In this document: in pieces, positions 13,804 to 22,499 of the stretch
How positions within the stretch are numbered: the first letter of the stretch is position 1
How the letters are laid out: every line of letters begins with the position of its first letter
NCBI GenBank assembly: GCA_958295945.1
Contig: OY282386.1
Location: 5,264,204-5,328,203 of the forward strand
From: Candidatus Poribacteria bacterium
GTDB taxonomy: Bacteria > Poribacteria > WGA-4E > WGA-3G
Length of the DNA: 64,000 bases
Reading direction: 5' to 3'
Made by a program: the position numbers and the translations under genes
Notes under the pieces: model-generated
The model's input: the letters and a program-made list of their open reading frames with translations, nothing else
Database searches by the model: none
Told to the model about the DNA's origin: nothing

Positions 13804-13839
13804 TACCTCAATTTGTTTAACTATAAAGGAACTAAGTGT

Positions 13840-14700
13840 ATGCAAGAAATACGTGATTCTAATGATCCAATGCCATTGGCTCCAGGTGAGAAGTTGATGA
13901 CGCCTGAACAAAAGTTCTTCTTTGATCTGCGTGGTTGGATTCTATTACCATCGGTCTTGTCTGAAGCAGAAATAGAAGAGATGAAAGAGGAAGTTTACGC
14001 CGGTGCCAGACATAGTTATGAAGGCACACTTCAGAATTTGCTTGATCATCCTGAAATTGTTGGCATTCTAAACGAACTTGTTGCTGATGAACGTTTTATT
14101 TTTGATGATTGCTACGGTTTTCGGTGTGAGAATTCGTTTACTACGGTCAGACAACCTGGATGGAAAACCCCTTCTGAAAGAGGCACTTCTGTTCCGCATG
14201 TCGTGAGACCACCACAGCAAGCCAATGCAGTACGGTATCAGGTTGCTGGTGGAAAGATTTTTGCCGGTCTCACTCGTGTGGTATGGGAACTTGAAGAAGT
14301 TAAGAAAGGACAGGGAGGCACCACTTTTCTCACTGGTTCACATAAGGCACATTTCAACTATGGTGGACCAGATCCACACCGTCCGAATATCAGTGAATCC
14401 CCTTATGAGGATAAGATAAAGGATATGATGGAGGACTATAGTTGTCCACCTGGATCAGCACTTGTGTTCACTGAAAGCCTTATTCATGCTACTAACAACT
14501 GGACGAATCCTGATAATCCAAGATGTGCTGTGTTTAACTGTTACAATTCAATATGGGCGCAATGGTATCGGTTGAATCTAAGTCATGAAATAATAGAAAA
14601 GATGCCTGCAAAACGCCAATCCTTATTCCGTGGAACTTGGGCAATAGGCGGTGGTCCTGGTGGAAACCGTCAGTATTCGTTGGATAATACCACTAAATAA
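13840..14700 (+). CDS. PhyH-like protein, first tandem copy
   Basis: A 286-residue protein of the phytanoyl-CoA dioxygenase fold. The start is ATG 13840 behind AAAGGA; a TTG nine codons upstream is less likely. The start MTPEQKFFFDLRGWILLPSVLS is family-typical, as are FLTGSHKAHF, PPGSALVFTESLIHA and the C-terminal GGPGGNRQYSLDN. At the place where the 5823 protein has its H-x-D iron motif, this protein reads YQVAGGKI, so two iron ligands seem missing, while the distal His (ESLIHATNNW) is kept. It may be inactive, use other ligands, or bind rather than oxidise. It precedes a close paralogue. Confidence 0.82.
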   Translation: MQEIRDSNDPMPLAPGEKLMTPEQKFFFDLRGWILLPSVLSEAEIEEMKEEVYAGARHSYEGTLQNLLDHPEIVGILNELVADERFIFDDCYGFRCENSFTTVRQPGWKTPSERGTSVPHVVRPPQQANAVRYQVAGGKIFAGLTRVVWELEEVKKGQGGTTFLTGSHKAHFNYGGPDPHRPNISESPYEDKIKDMMEDYSCPPGSALVFTESLIHATNNWTNPDNPRCAVFNCYNSIWAQWYRLNLSHEIIEKMPAKRQSLFRGTWAIGGGPGGNRQYSLDNTTK

Positions 14701-14725
14701 TTTTAATACCTTTAAGGAGATATTA

Positions 14726-15565
14726 ATGTCAAATGAAACGTTAAATGATCAACCAGTTCCGATGACTGAAGAACAGAAGTTTTTCTTTGATTTGCGCGGT
14801 TGGATTTTGTTACCATCAATATTGTCTGACGCGGAAATAGAAGAGATGAAAGCGGAAGTATATGCGGGGGCAAGGCAATGTTATCATGGAGCACTGCAGA
14901 ACCTGCTTGATCATCCTGCGATTGTAGGTGTACTGAATGAACTCCTATCCGAAAATCCTTTTATACACGATGACAGTTATGGATTTCGGTGTGAAGGATC
15001 CTTTACGACAGTGCGTGAACCTGGATGGAGTAAATCGTCACGAGGTGACAACGGTTTACCACACGTGGTGCGACCACCACAACAGGCGAATGCGATGCGG
15101 TATCAGGTAGCAGGTGGAAAGATTTTTGCTGGATTGACACGTGTCGTATGGGAACTTGAGGAAGTAAAAAAAGGACATGGCGGCACCTCTTTTCTTAGCG
15201 GGTCTCATAAGGCACATTTCAACTATGGTGGACCCGATCCGTATCGTCCAAATATCAGTGAATCGCCGTGGGAAAATAGTATGCGTGATATGATGGATGA
15301 GTATAGTTGTCCACCCGGATCTGTGGTTATCTTCACGGAAAGTCTTGTGCATGCTGCGAATGATTGGAGTAATCCTGACAATCCAAGATGTGCGGTATTC
15401 AATTGCTATAACTCAATTTGGGCACAATGGCATCGGTTGAATTTGAGTCATGAGGTTATTGAGACCATGCCGCCGAGACGACAATCGTTGTTCCGTGGGA
15501 CGTGGGCGATTGGTGGTGGTCCTGGTGGGAATCGTCAGTATTCGTTGGATAATAATACGATGTGA
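14726..15565 (+). CDS. PhyH-like protein, second tandem copy
   Basis: A 279-residue paralogue of the preceding gene, starting at ATG 14726 behind AAGGAG, 25 bases after the first stop. The two proteins match over nearly full length (shared FFFDLRGWILLPS, VRPPQQANA, YQVAGGKIFAGLTRVVWELE, FRGTWAIGGGPGGNRQY), with most changes conservative. It also lacks the H-x-D pair. The pair must come from a tandem duplication and has since diverged clearly at DNA level. The stop overlaps the possible GTG start of the next frame, and a 9-bp stem follows at 15574-15603. Confidence 0.82.
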   Translation: MSNETLNDQPVPMTEEQKFFFDLRGWILLPSILSDAEIEEMKAEVYAGARQCYHGALQNLLDHPAIVGVLNELLSENPFIHDDSYGFRCEGSFTTVREPGWSKSSRGDNGLPHVVRPPQQANAMRYQVAGGKIFAGLTRVVWELEEVKKGHGGTSFLSGSHKAHFNYGGPDPYRPNISESPWENSMRDMMDEYSCPPGSVVIFTESLVHAANDWSNPDNPRCAVFNCYNSIWAQWHRLNLSHEVIETMPPRRQSLFRGTWAIGGGPGGNRQYSLDNNTM

Positions 15566-15573
15566 TTGTTGAG

Positions 15574-15603
15574 AGTATGCGGGATTGCCAAATACCGCAT
15601 ACT
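15574..15603. repeat. 9-bp stem-loop after the PhyH pair
   Basis: AGTATGCGG (15574-15582) and CCGCATACT (15595-15603) pair perfectly around a 12-base loop. No T-run follows, so it is not a classic terminator. It could be an attenuator, a processing site or an operator between the PhyH genes and the HTH gene. Confidence 0.5.
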
Positions 15604-15651
15604 TGCACACAGATATTAACAACCCTCAATTTTACTAACAGTATAATTCGG

Positions 15652-16128
15652 TTGCTATATAATAAGGATAAACTAGCGCAATGGCTTGAAGAAAATCCGG
15701 ACGGGTGGCTCTTTGAATCCGACCAGTCGATCTCTAAACAGGCAGGTGTATCACCTGGTTCTGTGGCTAGATACTTAAATATGTTAGTGGCAAAACAGAA
15801 AGGTATAATGCCGTCTGAAGTTAAGAAACAAAGACTGGAAACTAGGCCTTTTTCTGGTAGAACTAAAGTGGATTTAAATAATATCCGAAAGATTATTGAA
15901 GAGAATCCTGATACTCCTCCTATCGATCTAGCTTTTATGGCTGATTGCTCTGAGCAAACAGTTGTGCGATTACTCGAAGCAAGTAATCCTAAAGATGAGG
16001 AGATACACAGAGAGGATGAGGATAGCGCAGATGATTCTGAGATTGCAACAATACGATCAGATATGGAAAACGTCAAATCTCAAATCGATGATATTCTGAC
16101 ACGCTTAGACGAACTGTTGAAGAATTAA
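15652..16128 (+). CDS. HTH protein upstream of DUF3800 gene
   Basis: The frame is open from 15562 (GTG) to 16128, but the recognisable protein begins near LLYNKDKLAQWLEENPDGW, so I place the start at TTG 15652. The start is uncertain; an ATG at 15577 falls inside a stem-loop. Two helix-turn-helix-like units are seen: ISKQAGVSPGSVARYLNML and IDLAFMADCSEQTVVRLLE. A third helix (IRSDMENVKSQIDDILTRLDELL) looks like a coiled coil for dimerisation. It is acidic between the two parts. The gene lies 108 bases before the DUF3800 gene on the same strand. A DNA-binding role is inferred. Confidence 0.6.
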   Translation: MLYNKDKLAQWLEENPDGWLFESDQSISKQAGVSPGSVARYLNMLVAKQKGIMPSEVKKQRLETRPFSGRTKVDLNNIRKIIEENPDTPPIDLAFMADCSEQTVVRLLEASNPKDEEIHREDEDSADDSEIATIRSDMENVKSQIDDILTRLDELLKN

Positions 16129-16236
16129 GATAGTTATCAAAATATATAGATTTTATCGTTTACTTTATATTGAGGTGTGGTGTCTTGCACTACATCTCAC
16201 TGATTATATCTATTTAATGTGGATGAAAAGTGATGT

Positions 16237-16815
16237 ATGGGCAAATCATTAGACAAGATTTACTGTTTTGTTGATGAATCTGGACAGCACACGCGTGGAA
16301 AAGTATATTGTGTTGCAGCAGTTATTGTGAACACTATAACTATTCGCGATGAAGTTGAACAAAAGTTGATAGGAATAGAGCAAAATGTAAAGAAAGGAAC
16401 TGCGAAATGGAAAAGCACACGTGATTCTATAAGGGAGCATTATCTCCGATCTATAGCAAACATTCAAGATCTAAAAGGTTGTCTTTACTTTGCAATCCAC
16501 TTCAATACTATCGATTATATTAACGCAACTGTTGATACAATTACACAAGCAATCAATCAGCACGTAAAGAAGACATGTCAAGTAATAATAGTTATTGATG
16601 GCTTAGATAATAAATCTAAGCAGAGGATTTCCAGACGTTTGAAAGAAAGAGGAATATTGTATAAAAAAGTTCGTGGTATAAAAGATGAAGGGAGTGCGTG
16701 GATTCGATTAGCAGATGCAATTGCAGGCTTTAGCAGACAGGTTTATGAAAATAGACCTTATACACTATCTTTATATCCTGAAATGAAACAGAAAGGGTTT
16801 CTCACCCAACTATAA
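16237..16815 (+). CDS. DUF3800 family protein
   Basis: A 192-residue protein with the marks of DUF3800: the N-terminal YCFVDESGQHT strand, VAAVIVNT, a central IIVIDGLDNKSKQRISRRLK with a conserved Asp, and DEGSAWIRLADAIAGFSRQ near the end. DUF3800 is thought to have an RNase-H-like fold with acidic active-site residues, so a nuclease role is possible but unproven. The tail ends KQKGFLTQL. Published comparative surveys report several structured RNA motifs beside DUF3800 genes, and a structured, convergently promoted segment lies directly downstream here (16815-16970). Confidence 0.85.
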   Translation: MGKSLDKIYCFVDESGQHTRGKVYCVAAVIVNTITIRDEVEQKLIGIEQNVKKGTAKWKSTRDSIREHYLRSIANIQDLKGCLYFAIHFNTIDYINATVDTITQAINQHVKKTCQVIIVIDGLDNKSKQRISRRLKERGILYKKVRGIKDEGSAWIRLADAIAGFSRQVYENRPYTLSLYPEMKQKGFLTQL

Positions 16816-16970
16816 ATGAAAATGCTAGAGTGTCTGGCTCTAGCAACCCAACATAGACATATCCTTACTAGCGAGGTCACGCTTTGGTAGAGGTCACGGT
16901 TGGCTGTCCCTATCTTTTCCAGAGGAAAAGCACCGTCCATACGGTACGTATTCGGGCAAATATATTATCT
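16815..16970 (-). ncRNA. Candidate structured RNA beside DUF3800 gene
   Basis: Read on the minus strand from the promoter at 16977-17005. Paired elements in order: ACCGT/ACGGT (16945-16941 with 16936-16932, 4-base loop); CTTTTCC/GGAAAAG (16930-16924 with 16920-16914, 3-base loop); a closing helix CCAAC/GTTGG (16903-16899 with 16852-16848) around a stem at 16893-16863 with an inner CGCT-type hairpin; and a 7-bp hairpin (16844-16838 with 16830-16824) followed by a T-rich run, like a terminator. The segment has no long open frame. It converges on the DUF3800 gene. It resembles in position the DUF3800-associated RNA motifs known from surveys; I cannot name a family. Confidence 0.6.
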
Positions 16971-16976
16971 ATTAAA

Positions 16977-17005
16977 ATTGTAACATAAAAACAACACTTT
17001 GTCAA
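16977..17005 (-). promoter_or_regulatory. Promoter driving the structured RNA leftward
   Basis: Read on the minus strand: TTGACA (plus-strand TGTCAA at 17000-17005), 17 bases and TACAAT (ATTGTA at 16977-16982). A direct repeat CTTTGTCAAGTTTTT at 16997-17011 and 17017-17031 duplicates the -35 region with a 20-base period, a possible regulator site. The start would fall near 16970. Confidence 0.6.
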
Positions 17006-17237
17006 GTTTTTCTTTACTTTGTCAAGTTTTTTGCTTTACACAACCTATTTGAAGAGTGTAAATTCAAGAACTATTTGATTTTAGACATACTTTCTTTCTA
17101 CGAGTTAATTTTACAATCATCAATACATAGCCGGTGTACACATTTACAACTATATTACCGTGAAAGAGTGTATTCAATATTTACATTCTAATGCAATCAC
17201 TTTCTACAAACCACTGTCATTTGCTGGATCGAACTCC
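17006..17237. other. AT-rich gap without visible gene
   Basis: Between the RNA promoter and the methyltransferase stop there is AT-rich sequence. Apart from the second copy of the TTGTCAAG repeat I see no gene, hairpin or repeat in it. Confidence 0.5.
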
Positions 17238-17960
17238 CTAATTTCGCGTTTTTTTGTAGAAATCACAATCTTTAAAACCAGCAGTCACAATACTGTCCTT
17301 GAGTTCGTGTGGTCGTAGGTGCATATTAAAATAGTCGCACTTGTAATGTATCTGCGTTTCCAAATCTATTCTAACCCAAACACATCTTTCTCCACCACCC
17401 TTTTCGTCATATTCCGCCATTTCCAGAACATAGACGTTTTTCTGTATCTCACTCAAATTAACCATAGGAAATTGCTGTTTTCGTATATGAGGGTTTGAAT
17501 GAACAAAATACAACCTACCATCTAGTGTAAGGTTATTGTGACTTTGCTTTAAGAGGATAAATGAACCACCCCTTGATTCATAGAAGAATGACCCCTCAAA
17601 GAAAATTACAGAAAACGGTTGTTCAAAGGCCATTTCATTATAATCCCCTAAGACATATTCAATCTCTAAGCCTTCCCTGTGGGTGATTTTATGTGCTTCA
17701 GATAGGAAATGTGGGGACTTGTCCATTCCAACAACATGATAACCACGTCTTGCAAATTCACGCGTATAACTCCCAATTCCGCAACCTGCATCCAAGATTC
17801 TATCATTTTTGGTAAGTTGTAGAACCTCTTCATAGAATGGGAAGTGCTTTTGAACAAAGTCGGGTGCTTCAAAATTGTGTCTGGCATGCTCAAGATACCA
17901 TCTATCATACACCTCGTGTCCAAAATCTGTTCTAAGTAATTGACTGGGTAGACTATTCAT
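17238..17960 (-). CDS. SAM-dependent methyltransferase
   Basis: A 240-residue class I methyltransferase. Motif I is clear (RILDAGCGIGSYTREFARRG, about residues 55-73), followed by motif II (VVGMDKSPHFL), a VLGDYNEMAF acidic loop and motif IV-like IFFEGSFFYE. The N-terminus (FGHEVYDRWYLEHARHNFEA) resembles small-molecule methyltransferases. The start overlaps the glgB stop by eight bases with AGGAG just upstream, so it is the last gene of the glgB operon. Substrate unknown; the link to glycogen may be only transcriptional. Confidence 0.85.
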   Translation of the reverse strand: MNSLPSQLLRTDFGHEVYDRWYLEHARHNFEAPDFVQKHFPFYEEVLQLTKNDRILDAGCGIGSYTREFARRGYHVVGMDKSPHFLSEAHKITHREGLEIEYVLGDYNEMAFEQPFSVIFFEGSFFYESRGGSFILLKQSHNNLTLDGRLYFVHSNPHIRKQQFPMVNLSEIQKNVYVLEMAEYDEKGGGERCVWVRIDLETQIHYKCDYFNMHLRPHELKDSIVTAGFKDCDFYKKTRN

Positions 17961-20034
17961 TTTTTCTCCTAACAGGCACTAAAACCTGCGCGCTTCTGGC
18001 AGGGAGATAAAGCTGAATGGATTGGGTATACCCTTCCATTTCAACATCTTGCCAAGGATAATGGATGCTTTCAACTGCACCGTAACCACCGAATTCTGTA
18101 TCATCGGAATTGAGGATGATGCAATAATCTGTCTTTTCAGGGACAGGGATACGCCAATCCGTGGCAGATACGGTCGGATGCAAGTTGAGCGCAAACACAA
18201 GCCCACCACGTGTATAGACAATCTGTTTCGCGTCCTCGTGAATAAACAACAACTGAATATCCTCCTCTGAAAGCAAGTGATAATGTTTGTCAAGCTGCTG
18301 CATTCCAATATCAAATGCGTTGAGATGCTTGTAATATAGGGTGTCATCGTCAACAAGATGCCACTGCCTGCGTGCGTACCAATAGGAATTGTTGTTTCCT
18401 GCCCGCGGGAAGTCAATCCATTCGGGGTGTCCAAACTCATTTCCCATGAAGTTGAGATACCCTTCGCCACCTAAACTAAATGTAAGCAAACGGATCAATT
18501 TGTGCAATGCAACGCCACGAGCAATCCTAAGACTTGGCGTGGAAACACTCATATTTGTATAGAGTTCAGCATCCATCAACTGCATTGCAAGTGTTTTGTC
18601 CCCGACAATGCTTTGGTCGTGACTTTCAACATACGCGATATGTTTTTCGCCTGCGCGGCGATTGCGTAACATGCCGTAAATCTCACCGATGTGCCAATCT
18701 TCATCCTTTTTCTCCTTCAACAACCGAATCCAATAATCAGGAATCCCCATCGCTAAGCGATAATCAAAACCGAGTCCGCCTTCGTCAAGAGGACGTGCAA
18801 GTCCTGGCATTCCACTCATATCTTCAGCGATAGAAATAGCGTTCGGATTGACAGCATGGACTACCTCATTTGCCAACATCAGATATGCGATTGCATCTAA
18901 CTCAACATTAGCATTGAAGTAATCGGAATAACCAGTGAAATTCTGTCCAAGTCCGTGATCATTGTAAAGCATGCTGGTGACACCATCAAATCTGAAACCG
19001 TCAAACCTATAGGTCTCCAACCAATAGCGGACGTTGCTCAACAGAAAACGTTGCACTTCATATTTGCTATAATCAAAACAGAGTGAGTCCCAAGCGATAT
19101 GTTCACCCTTTGCCCCCGCATGAAAATAGTGGTGATCTGTGCCATCAAAGTGGTTCAAACCCTCGTTGATATTCTTTACAGCATGGCTATGCACCAAATC
19201 CATGATAACCAACAAACCCATGCCGTGTGCAGTATCAACGAGTTCTTTCAATTCTTCAGGTGTTCCGAAACGACTTGATACGGCGAAGAAATTACTAACG
19301 TGATATCCAAAGCTTGCATAATAAGGGTGTTCCTTAATTGCCATGAGTTGAATTGTGTTGTATCCTAAATCAGCAATCCTTGGCAACACATTTTGTGTGA
19401 ACTCAGTGAAAGTTCCGACCTTTTCTTCCTCTTGTGCCATACCAACATGTGCTTCGTAAATCCTTAGTCCTTCCGTACCCCTGCTATAGTACGAGGTCTC
19501 TGTGTCTCGCCAAATATCAGTTGATCCATTATGTTTCCATTGATATGCATTCGGTGGAGACCAATACTGTCCTGTAAACTCCGTTTCGGTTTCTTGAACA
19601 ACACGTTGGATATAGGCTGGAATTCTATCATGTTCACCAAGAGCGGATTTGATATGCACTTTGACTCGGCTACCGTGTGTCAGTCGGTCAGAATAGTCTT
19701 TATCAGGTAGGAAAAGATGCCATATTCCCCAGGCATCAATGGACATAGGGTTGGCATCACGGTTCCAATCGTTGAAATCTCCTATGAGAGAGAGGGAATG
19801 TGCAGAAGGTGCCCATTCACGGTACCAGACACCAGACTCACCCTCTTTTTCACCACAATTGAAACCGAAATAACGGTGTCCTCGACTTATCTCGCCTAAA
19901 ACCCCACCGGTTTTCTCAATAACTGATTTAAAATGTAGGTATTGTTTGAACCGTTCACGCAATTGGGTGGTATAAGGCTTTAGATGCGGATCAAGTTCTA
20001 TGAGGCGTGTCCCGTCTGGTTGATGTTTGCCCAT
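17953..20034 (-). CDS. glgB: 1,4-alpha-glucan branching enzyme
   Basis: A 693-residue GH13 branching enzyme closer in layout to the eukaryote-type subgroup than to enteric GlgB. It has a CBM48-like N-terminal domain (WYREWAPSAHSLSLIGDFNDW) and the catalytic barrel with FRFDG (nucleophile Asp350), SIAEDM (acid/base Glu404) and ESHDQS (Asp473). Downstream, NFMGNEFGHPEW and a C-terminal beta domain complete it. It introduces alpha-1,6 branches into glycogen made by the GT5-like enzyme. The membrane-anchored gene lies 27 bases upstream and the methyltransferase overlaps its end. A truncated copy of its first 187 codons lies at 21065-21626. Confidence 0.94.
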   Translation of the reverse strand: MGKHQPDGTRLIELDPHLKPYTTQLRERFKQYLHFKSVIEKTGGVLGEISRGHRYFGFNCGEKEGESGVWYREWAPSAHSLSLIGDFNDWNRDANPMSIDAWGIWHLFLPDKDYSDRLTHGSRVKVHIKSALGEHDRIPAYIQRVVQETETEFTGQYWSPPNAYQWKHNGSTDIWRDTETSYYSRGTEGLRIYEAHVGMAQEEEKVGTFTEFTQNVLPRIADLGYNTIQLMAIKEHPYYASFGYHVSNFFAVSSRFGTPEELKELVDTAHGMGLLVIMDLVHSHAVKNINEGLNHFDGTDHHYFHAGAKGEHIAWDSLCFDYSKYEVQRFLLSNVRYWLETYRFDGFRFDGVTSMLYNDHGLGQNFTGYSDYFNANVELDAIAYLMLANEVVHAVNPNAISIAEDMSGMPGLARPLDEGGLGFDYRLAMGIPDYWIRLLKEKKDEDWHIGEIYGMLRNRRAGEKHIAYVESHDQSIVGDKTLAMQLMDAELYTNMSVSTPSLRIARGVALHKLIRLLTFSLGGEGYLNFMGNEFGHPEWIDFPRAGNNNSYWYARRQWHLVDDDTLYYKHLNAFDIGMQQLDKHYHLLSEEDIQLLFIHEDAKQIVYTRGGLVFALNLHPTVSATDWRIPVPEKTDYCIILNSDDTEFGGYGAVESIHYPWQDVEMEGYTQSIQLYLPARSAQVLVPVRRKNE

Positions 20035-20061
20035 AATGAGGGTAAAATACTGATACGATTC

Positions 20062-20904
20062 TTAGAGGGATGGAAACAATTTTTCAATTGCTTCAGTTCT
20101 CTCAGTCTTACTTAGCGTTGAAAGTCTCTGGATTTCCTCATCGGTAAGTTTTTCAAAGAGATGATCAATTTTGGAGTACAATTCGGTGGTTACCTCTGTC
20201 ATTTCAGTATCTGCAGGAGAATCAAGGTCAACCGTATACTCTTTACCATACACATCGGTAATGTGAACAACACCGTGCTTTCCACCTTCTGGAAAATGAA
20301 ACGATCCATCTGCCTCCATGATCCATTGGTCTGCTCCTATTATCCCAGAAGTTTGGATTCCAAAGGCATGAGGTGGTAGTTTTGGATTTGGACCTAGAGG
20401 AATATCTGTAATCTTTTCAATGTATGTCTCAACACTGTTTTTTACCAGACTTTTGTTGAGTGATTCAAGGTGCTGGATCATCAGTTTCCTACTACCCGCT
20501 GGCATATCCGCTAATTTGGTTTTTGCAATCAGTGCCAGGAGTCCGAAGTGTCGTTGATAAGGTTTGACATCTGTATCAGCGGGAAATGATTCTTGTCCCA
20601 TTAATAACATCTCAGGGTTGTCACGATATAAGGTCATTGTGTGTGCTTCTAACGCCAACTGTTCACGCTGCGGCAGCCTATATTTTTTCGCAACATCAGG
20701 TGAGACGTTCATAAATGATTCTGCAAGATTCGCATATTCTTTTTGTTGTTCTGGTGTAAGTTCTCCTGAATAAGTATATATTGGGGCAAATACCTCACGC
20801 GTTTTGGCAAAGTTCTTTTGACGTTGGGTGTGAACATAAAACACACCAATGCCTATTATAATTACAGCCGAAAGTATTGTATAGTATAACCTTTTTTTAT
20901 TCAT
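20062..20904 (-). CDS. Membrane-anchored protein of unknown function, copy 1
   Basis: A 280-residue protein that I do not recognise. It starts with NKKR and one hydrophobic helix (residues 7-25, LYYTILSAVIIIGIGVFYV), so it is probably anchored in the inner membrane with a periplasmic body. The rest is mostly helical and charged; HITDVYGKEYTVDLDSPAD is a short beta-rich piece before a C-terminal helix bundle. I place the start at ATG 20904, behind GGAAGGAAG. It is first in the operon with glgB and methyltransferase. A diverged copy sits at 21654-22457. Confidence 0.75.
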   Translation of the reverse strand: MNKKRLYYTILSAVIIIGIGVFYVHTQRQKNFAKTREVFAPIYTYSGELTPEQQKEYANLAESFMNVSPDVAKKYRLPQREQLALEAHTMTLYRDNPEMLLMGQESFPADTDVKPYQRHFGLLALIAKTKLADMPAGSRKLMIQHLESLNKSLVKNSVETYIEKITDIPLGPNPKLPPHAFGIQTSGIIGADQWIMEADGSFHFPEGGKHGVVHITDVYGKEYTVDLDSPADTEMTEVTTELYSKIDHLFEKLTDEEIQRLSTLSKTERTEAIEKLFPSL

Positions 20905-20946
20905 GTCGCTTCCTTCCAACAGAGATTGCGGATTTTTTATGTGTCC

Positions 20947-20975
20947 ATGATACTTTTATTCTTGTTTTTTGTCAA
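20947..20975 (-). promoter_or_regulatory. Promoter of the glgB operon
   Basis: On the minus strand: TTGACA (TGTCAA at 20970-20975), 17 bases and TATCAT (ATGATA at 20947-20952). The same promoter is kept at 22500-22528 in the duplicated unit. Confidence 0.65.
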
Positions 20976-21064
20976 TGATGTTTGTAACTCTATCAGAGTA
21001 ATTCAGTATTATTTTATATGACTAAATACATCTTAATTTCTCTTGCCATTGTTCCGAAATTTGA

Positions 21065-21626
21065 CCGTACCCCTGCTATAGTACGAGGTCTCTGTGTCTC
21101 GCTAAATATCAGTTGATCCATTATGTTTCCATTGATATGCATTCGATGGAGACCAATACTCTCCTGTAAACTCAGTTTCGGTTTCTTGAACAACACGTTG
21201 GATATAGGCTGGAATTCTATCATGTTCACCAAGCGCGGATTTGACATGCACTTTGACTCGGCTACCGTGTGTCAGTCGGTCAGAATAGTCTTTATCAGGT
21301 AGGAAAAGATGCCATATTCCCCAGGCATCAATGGACATAGGGTTGGCATCACGGTTCCAATCGTTGAAATCTCCTATGAGAGAGAGGGAATGTGCAGAAG
21401 GTGCCCATTCACGGTACCAGACACCAGACTCACCCTCTTTTTCACCACAATTGAAACCGAAATAACGGTGTCCTTGACTTATCTCGCCTAAAACCCCACC
21501 GGTTTTCTCAATAATTGATTTAAAATGTAGATATTGTTTGAACCGTTCACGCAATTGGGTGGTATAAGGCTTTAGATACGGATCAAGTTCTATGAGGCGT
21601 GTCCCGTCTGGTTGATGTTTGCCCAT
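21065..21626 (-). pseudogene. Truncated glgB copy
   Basis: It repeats the first 187 codons of the intact glgB with about half a dozen residue changes (for example H/Y at 16, R/Q at 51). It is broken twice: codon 175 (Trp in the intact gene) is a TAG stop, leaving 174 residues, and homology ends at 21065 in the middle of the gene. Only the N-terminal CBM48-like domain would be made, without a catalytic barrel. Confidence 0.88.
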
Positions 21627-21653
21627 AATGAGGGTAAAATACTGATACGATTC

Positions 21654-22457
21654 TTAGAGGGATGGAAACAATTTTTCAATTGCTTCAGTTCTCTCAGTCT
21701 TACTAAGCGTTGAAAGTCTCTGGATTTCCTCATCGGTAAGTTTTTCAAAGAGATGATCAATTTTGGAGTACAATTCGGTGGTTACCTCTGTCATTTCAGT
21801 ATCTGCAGGAGAATCAAGGTCAACCGTATACTCTTTACCATAGATATCAGTAATATGAAAAACCCCGCGTTTGCCATCATTTCCTACCTCAACAAAAAAT
21901 GGAGCTCCAATCATTATTAACACATTCACACTGAATTTTGGGGATGTTTGTTTGCCCTTAAATTTTGCTGCAATTGTATCAATACTATTTTGAATTAATT
22001 TTTTGTCGTACGTTTCAAGATGCTGGATCATCAGTTTTCTACTACCCGCTGGCATATCCGCTAATTTGGTTTTTGCAATCAGTGCCAGGAGTCCGAAGTG
22101 TCGTTGATAAGATTTGAAATCTATATCAGCAGGGAATGATCCCTGTACCATCAATAAGTAGATTTCAGGATTGTCACGATATAAGGTCATTGTGTGTGCT
22201 TCTAACGCCAATTGTTCACGCTGCGGAAGTCTATATTTTTTCGCGACATCAAGTGGGACATTACTAAGTGATTCTGCAAGTTCTGAATATTCTTTTTGCT
22301 GTTCTGGTGTGAGTTTTCCTGAATACATATAGATTGGTGCAAATACCTCACGCGTTTCTGCAAAGTTCTTTTGCCGTTGGGTGTGAACATAAAACACGCC
22401 AATGCCTATTATAATTACAGCCGAAAGTATTGTATAAAATAGTCTTTTTTTATTCAT
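21654..22457 (-). CDS. Membrane-anchored protein of unknown function, copy 2
   Basis: A 267-residue paralogue of the 20062 gene, with start ATG 22457 and the same GGAAGGAAG site. The anchor helix, the first 130 residues and the last 75 residues match closely. The middle (about residues 140-190) is different and shorter: copy 1 has a Pro-rich stretch with WIMEADGSFHF, while copy 2 has SVNVLIMIGAPFFVEV. The open frame is intact and its promoter is kept, so it is probably expressed. Strong divergence only in the centre suggests a variable binding surface or relaxed constraint. Confidence 0.72.
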   Translation of the reverse strand: MNKKRLFYTILSAVIIIGIGVFYVHTQRQKNFAETREVFAPIYMYSGKLTPEQQKEYSELAESLSNVPLDVAKKYRLPQREQLALEAHTMTLYRDNPEIYLLMVQGSFPADIDFKSYQRHFGLLALIAKTKLADMPAGSRKLMIQHLETYDKKLIQNSIDTIAAKFKGKQTSPKFSVNVLIMIGAPFFVEVGNDGKRGVFHITDIYGKEYTVDLDSPADTEMTEVTTELYSKIDHLFEKLTDEEIQRLSTLSKTERTEAIEKLFPSL

Positions 22458-22499
22458 GCCGCTTCCTTCCAACAGAGATTGCGGATTTCTTATGTGTCC

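Follow-up and report, generated by a model that had tools for sequence, protein, structure and literature searches.

RNA motifs associated with DUF3800 genes were reportedly introduced in an NAR survey of 2017, and the RNAs linked to these genes have been recorded so far as families with no assigned function. Two of them, DUF3800-II and DUF3800-III (Rfam RF02961 and RF02962), occur in two of the loci studied here, each convergent with a DUF3800 gene and meeting its stop codon. The protein has been described as an RNase H fold and associated with V-A2 and VI-F CRISPR loci in two papers (PMC10910872, PMC12669027), and a rearranged catalytic site was noted in the former (PMC10910872). Type III toxin-antitoxin systems such as ToxIN likewise combine an RNase-type protein with an adjoining small structured RNA, which is sometimes repeated in tandem. 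In the known type III systems the RNA lies upstream of the toxin and on the same strand, and the fold of ToxN differs from the RNase HII-like fold. PMC8860590 describes the protein of ToxIN-type systems as an endoribonuclease inhibited by multiple RNA repeats. Lastly, CreTA, a small RNA module located beside type I cas genes, provides guard RNAs of CRISPR-Cas (PMC9458426).

Here we analyzed a DUF3800 gene and its convergent RNA in a window of 64,000 nucleotides, the whole stretch under study, which is part of a 5.34-Mb single-contig genome of Candidatus Poribacteria, a sponge-associated bacterium. The gene order is a glycosyltransferase, two PhyH genes, an HTH-like gene, DUF3800 and the RNA, followed on the other strand by a methyltransferase and a glycogen branching enzyme (GBE). 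The features of the locus are the following:

15562..16128, plus strand: HTH-like gene, not a constant component (weak Pfam HTH match; locus comparison)
16237..16815, plus strand: DUF3800 protein gene, 192 aa, with a predicted RNase-HII-like fold (Pfam, predicted model, homologue conservation)
16816..16970, minus strand: convergent small RNA gene, with a predicted transcript from roughly 16970 to 16818 and a modelled part at 16960-16816
16818..16844, minus strand: intrinsic terminator hairpin GCUAGAG-CCAGACA-CUCUAGC, then UUUUC (7/7 stem pairs compensated in a 44-sequence alignment)
16848..16903, minus strand: second stem module P4-P6 (CCAAC..GUUGG), which holds the window-only insertion behind the GAGGTCACG direct repeat (alignment, pair counts)
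16906..16957, minus strand: pan-phylum RNA core made of P1, GAAUAC, the P2 hairpin, the P3 hairpin and UAGG, a three-way junction (model R3 and core covariation)
16977..17005, minus strand: sigma70-type promoter of the RNA, TTGACA-17-TACAAT (position and consensus common to other DUF3800-linked RNAs)

Elsewhere in the window, two adjoining PhyH-family genes (13813-15565) form a pair that recurs here in many related genomes, and a tandem duplication at 17953-22472 contains a truncated second N-terminal copy of GBE (21102-21626) and two similar ORFs (20062-20919 and 21654-22472). Unlike the type III layout, the RNA of this locus is downstream of the protein gene, convergent with it and provided with its own promoter.

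The protein matched Pfam DUF3800 (PF12686) at E 1.2e-9, with 39.5 bits against a gathering score of 21. Its AlphaFold model had a mean pLDDT of 93.8, and a structure search with this predicted model returned RNase HII as the best solved folds (E 2e-6, TM about 0.5); a sequence search of the PDB detected no solved relative. Among 49 homologues D13 and D160 were invariant and E14 and D121 were more than 90% conserved, all of them DEDD-type residues. The acidic DE...D...D order is common to the protein and to RNase HII, as compared by order along the sequence. Differences from RNase HII are that the last acidic residue falls on a different motif (RLADA) and that the protein is paired with an RNA gene; the predicted fold also sets it apart from ToxN. 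According to this confident model, the DUF3800 protein resembles RNase HII and would act as a nuclease.

The promoter of the RNA, which a sequence-only reading of the window had already located, consists of a -35 box TTGACA (17005-17000), a 17-nt spacer and a -10 box TACAAT (16982-16977). The RNA is ~130 nt long, its structured part begins at 16960, its last hairpin (16844-16824), which the same reading had called terminator-like, is followed by UUUUC, and its 3' end abuts the DUF3800 stop codon. Additionally, TTGACAAAG, the -35 region, is duplicated 20 nt further upstream (window 17000-17032), where it offers a second possible -35 box. The folding energy was unremarkable (z -1.6; 11 of 200 shuffles equally good), and we accepted the RNA as real because the comparative evidence is decisive where folding energy alone is unimpressive. 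All close DUF3800 homologues (50-69% identical as proteins) have next to them an RNA that is 76-81% identical to that of the window and runs antisense from the stop codon, and the compensatory changes expected among homologues were found at 23 of 37 base pairs in 44 aligned copies, in an alignment that was fitted to the structure (shuffle mean 8; 0 of 500 shuffles reached 23). All seven pairs of the terminator were compensated in these 44 sequences. The sequence-only reading had also reported direct repeats GAGGTCACG inside the RNA; they are present, but alignment with close relatives confines them to the copy of this genome, where they stem from an insertion or duplication of roughly 17 nt. 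It had seen no open frame in the segment; a mechanical 60-aa ORF does overlap the RNA, but paired substitutions, and indels whose lengths are not divisible by three, speak against a coding role. Furthermore, the window-type RNA shows conservation along its whole length in the alignments, lacks a guide-like variable segment and has room for only about 5-10 nt between its promoter and the structured core, which disfavours the suggestion of an RNA-guided nuclease in the CRISPR/OMEGA sense; with no guide-length variable segment, a programmable guide RNA (OMEGA/CRISPR-like) was excluded at this locus.

A DUF3800 profile search retrieved 67 loci, distributed over Poribacteria, Chloroflexota, Patescibacteria and further groups, and nearly all of them show a terminator hairpin right after the DUF3800 stop codon, on the opposite strand. 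Their RNAs follow the 5'->3' order P1 - GAAxAC - P2 - P3 - UAGG - P1' with a sigma70-type promoter ahead, and in a sequence-only alignment P1 is paired in 100% of cells by CG, GC, UA, AU and GU types. When promoters were scanned, 23 of 36 RNAs scored at least 10/12 against TTGACA/TATAAT, compared with 1/36 for the other strand and 2.6% for shuffled sequences; the core begins 11-14 nt past the -10 box in most loci and the room between promoter and structured core is about 5-10 nt. In addition, a model of the three-way-junction core (R3), built without any window-type sequences, gave E 1.1e-7 (in 401 nt) for the window RNA and about 1e-7 to 1e-4 for the relatives of this RNA. With a threshold of E <= 0.01, R3 placed the RNA directly downstream and on the opposite strand in 38 of 44 non-Poribacterial DUF3800 loci that had been found by protein only, with few matches elsewhere in 326 kb; the remaining 6 carry divergent versions, too far for R3 and judged by eye. 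The full window-type model also matched a Patescibacterial locus (L038; Parcubacteria) with 74.8 bits, and in Patescibacteria and Chloroflexota genomes all 29 RNA matches examined adjoin a DUF3800 gene or its remnant. Within Poribacteria, a model built from eleven copies (R2) found the RNA in 40 of 85 genomes. Other DUF3800 subfamilies of Poribacteria (mostly 282-300 aa) showed no match to model R1 and no Rfam DUF3800 RNA, and searches with the window protein or its profile found no phage, plasmid or IMG/VR copies. In several phyla, one large DUF3800 subfamily is linked to a single covarying RNA core. The pairing of DUF3800 with a convergent structured RNA that the sequence-only reading had noticed in a single genome is widely conserved, and in most phyla its covariation and non-random association run counter to the outcomes that would have refuted that reading.

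In relation to the described DUF3800 RNAs, the Rfam DUF3800 models (families I-XI), to which the sequence-only reading had pointed, left the window RNA and its relatives unmatched even at E 5, and the window RNA has no match in Rfam 15. DUF3800-II shares with it the layout P1 / J / hairpin / hairpin / CUA / P1', with only 5.2 bits against R3, and the P4-P6 module is an addition of the window RNA relative to DUF3800-II and -III. Among our loci these two families lie at L062:853-922, at the end of the gene L062:265-870, and at L041:2736-2844, after L041:2081-2728, a gene recognised as DUF3800 by motifs and not by profile. The literature passages on DUF3800-II and -III describe neither tandem arrays nor type I CRISPR settings. 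We therefore class the window RNA as a DUF3800-associated RNA of the broad kind, outside the named families.

The window RNA is a single unit, and window-type loci adjoin HsdS or TaqI-type methylase genes or occupy the PhyH-GBE site. At the more distant DUF3800 genes of Poribacteria the RNA comes as 2-4 tandem units of ~108 nt with compensatory changes, and these loci sit inside type I-D/I-B CRISPR loci, in the order WYL, DUF3800, RNA units and then cas10d, cas3d or cas8b (cas calls by PADLOC in three loci and by matching N-termini in the others). A CRISPR array was present within 20 kb in 10 of the 14 tandem-unit loci. The loci concerned are L012-L021, L023-L025 and L028 (and L243-L256), and the arrays of most have 37-nt repeats. 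The RNA units share with the resident CRISPR repeats only stretches of 7-9 nt, which is chance level. Unlike CreTA, these modules have RNA units that do not resemble CRISPR repeats and a putative nuclease gene instead of a toxin RNA, and a CreTA-like crRNA mimic was ruled out on the lack of similarity between units and repeats.

The two partners are lost unequally. Of the DUF3800 copies, about 18 independent ones have been disrupted or shortened, and all of these except L022 have kept the RNA (in L011 it was judged by eye). No intact DUF3800 without a convergent hairpin element was found, six of these elements lying beyond R3 and being judged by eye. At one broken copy (L029), a sub-threshold HEARO RNA match (31.6 bits) lies at 976-1134, just upstream of the DUF3800 remnant. 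Furthermore, about 25 Poribacteria genomes have the RNA at the PhyH-GBE site with no adjacent DUF3800, and from G037 and G044, both single-contig, a Pfam DUF3800 is absent genome-wide. These orphan RNAs (L143-L169) usually lack a sigma70 promoter and lie 14-39 nt behind either HicB or a small antitoxin-like gene (MNEVVKEVREMRMKISEKCGHD...); the partner of that gene, a toxin of PIN-like or HicA type, is either still there or lost. HicA alone was Pfam-confirmed, the PIN-like and small antitoxin calls being a reading of sequences. The orphan RNA may be a 3'-UTR element at these sites. Its identity between genomes was 0.90, compared with 0.59 for the third positions of codons and 0.52 for the intergenic DNA next to it, so that strong purifying selection acts on it. 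The RNA tree follows two genera with DUF3800-plus and DUF3800-minus copies mixed, which fits repeated loss or gain of DUF3800.

The explanation that we favour, with a probability of roughly 40%, is that the locus is a two-part protein-RNA module in which an RNA partner resembling a type III antitoxin restrains an RNase-HII-like nuclease. The DUF3800 protein would be a metal-dependent nuclease, and the convergent gene, with its strong, constitutive-looking promoter, would supply an abundant structured small RNA, predicted to fold as a three-way junction and to terminate intrinsically at the nuclease stop codon. Like the RNA antitoxins of type III systems, this RNA most likely binds and restrains the nuclease, which in tandem-unit loci probably also cleaves the precursor into single units. 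The module accompanies type I-D/I-B CRISPR and restriction-modification loci, which serve in defence, and there it may guard against their loss or act when they are inhibited. The convergent promoter, the tandem units, the retention of the RNA after protein loss and the residence in defence loci fit an RNA that restrains a nuclease. On the other side, the CRISPR-embedded copies would equally fit an accessory effector, the acidic residues are placed somewhat differently from those of RNase HII, the known type III systems have their RNA upstream on the toxin strand instead of convergent, and above all the antitoxin hypothesis does not account for the orphan copies: being conserved, the Poribacterial orphan RNA must act there other than by restraining DUF3800.

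Other explanations were weighed as well. The placement within type I-D/I-B CRISPR loci and next to restriction genes, the published association of DUF3800 with V-A2 and VI-F loci (PMC10910872, PMC12669027) and the fact that this DUF3800 subfamily is strictly paired with the RNA would suit an RNA that is not an inhibitor but a required cofactor of a ribonucleoprotein defence effector containing DUF3800, in which it would serve as a scaffold or recognise a fixed sequence. We consider this a serious although somewhat unlikely reading, as the RNA has no variable guide, its stems vary largely by compensatory change, its units share only the chance 7-9 nt with resident CRISPR repeats, and broken proteins leave intact RNAs behind. 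Retention at the syntenic PhyH - RNA - GBE site without adjacent DUF3800, where the RNA follows the genus split and orphan copies are under strong purifying selection, points instead to an independent regulatory small RNA, with DUF3800 as a mobile partner that would process or exploit it. This is unlikely, given that every RNA examined outside Poribacteria adjoins DUF3800 or a remnant and that the DUF3800-less copies mostly lack a sigma70 promoter, suggesting that theirs is a secondary state.

A mere structured terminator or insulator between convergent genes would account for the intrinsic terminator at the DUF3800 stop codon, but is very improbable in view of the promoter at a fixed distance, the additional conserved and covarying helices, the tandem units and the identity of 0.90 compared with 0.52 in flanking intergenic DNA. 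Lastly, the three-part HTH, DUF3800 and RNA system that the sequence-only reading had proposed has hardly any probability left. The gene it called a two-HTH protein exists (15562-16128) directly upstream of DUF3800, but its best Pfam HTH match is below cut-off; among the close loci only L008 keeps an HTH gene, its C-terminal half, beside DUF3800, and a weak HTH remnant lies beside the RNA in L173. The HTH was absent beside DUF3800 in all other loci inspected, and in a 60-genome search the other HTH matches were weak and away from known DUF3800 loci. Of that interpretation, the pair is borne out, with covariation, and its suggestion of an RNA-based antitoxin or RNA-controlled nuclease would fit best; the HTH part and the RNA-guided reading are not supported.

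The RNA described here is equipped with a promoter and a terminator of its own, lacks a guide, is placed in type I-D/I-B CRISPR loci in part of the family, and occurs naturally in states in which one partner has been lost, features that make the function of DUF3800-RNA pairs directly testable with a two-gene construct. Tentatively, these loci could represent a bacterial module class whose RNase-HII-like nuclease is under the control of a convergent three-way-junction RNA, and which may guard or arm CRISPR-Cas and restriction loci in several phyla, the RNA being kept alone in Poribacteria beside other RNase toxin-antitoxin pairs.
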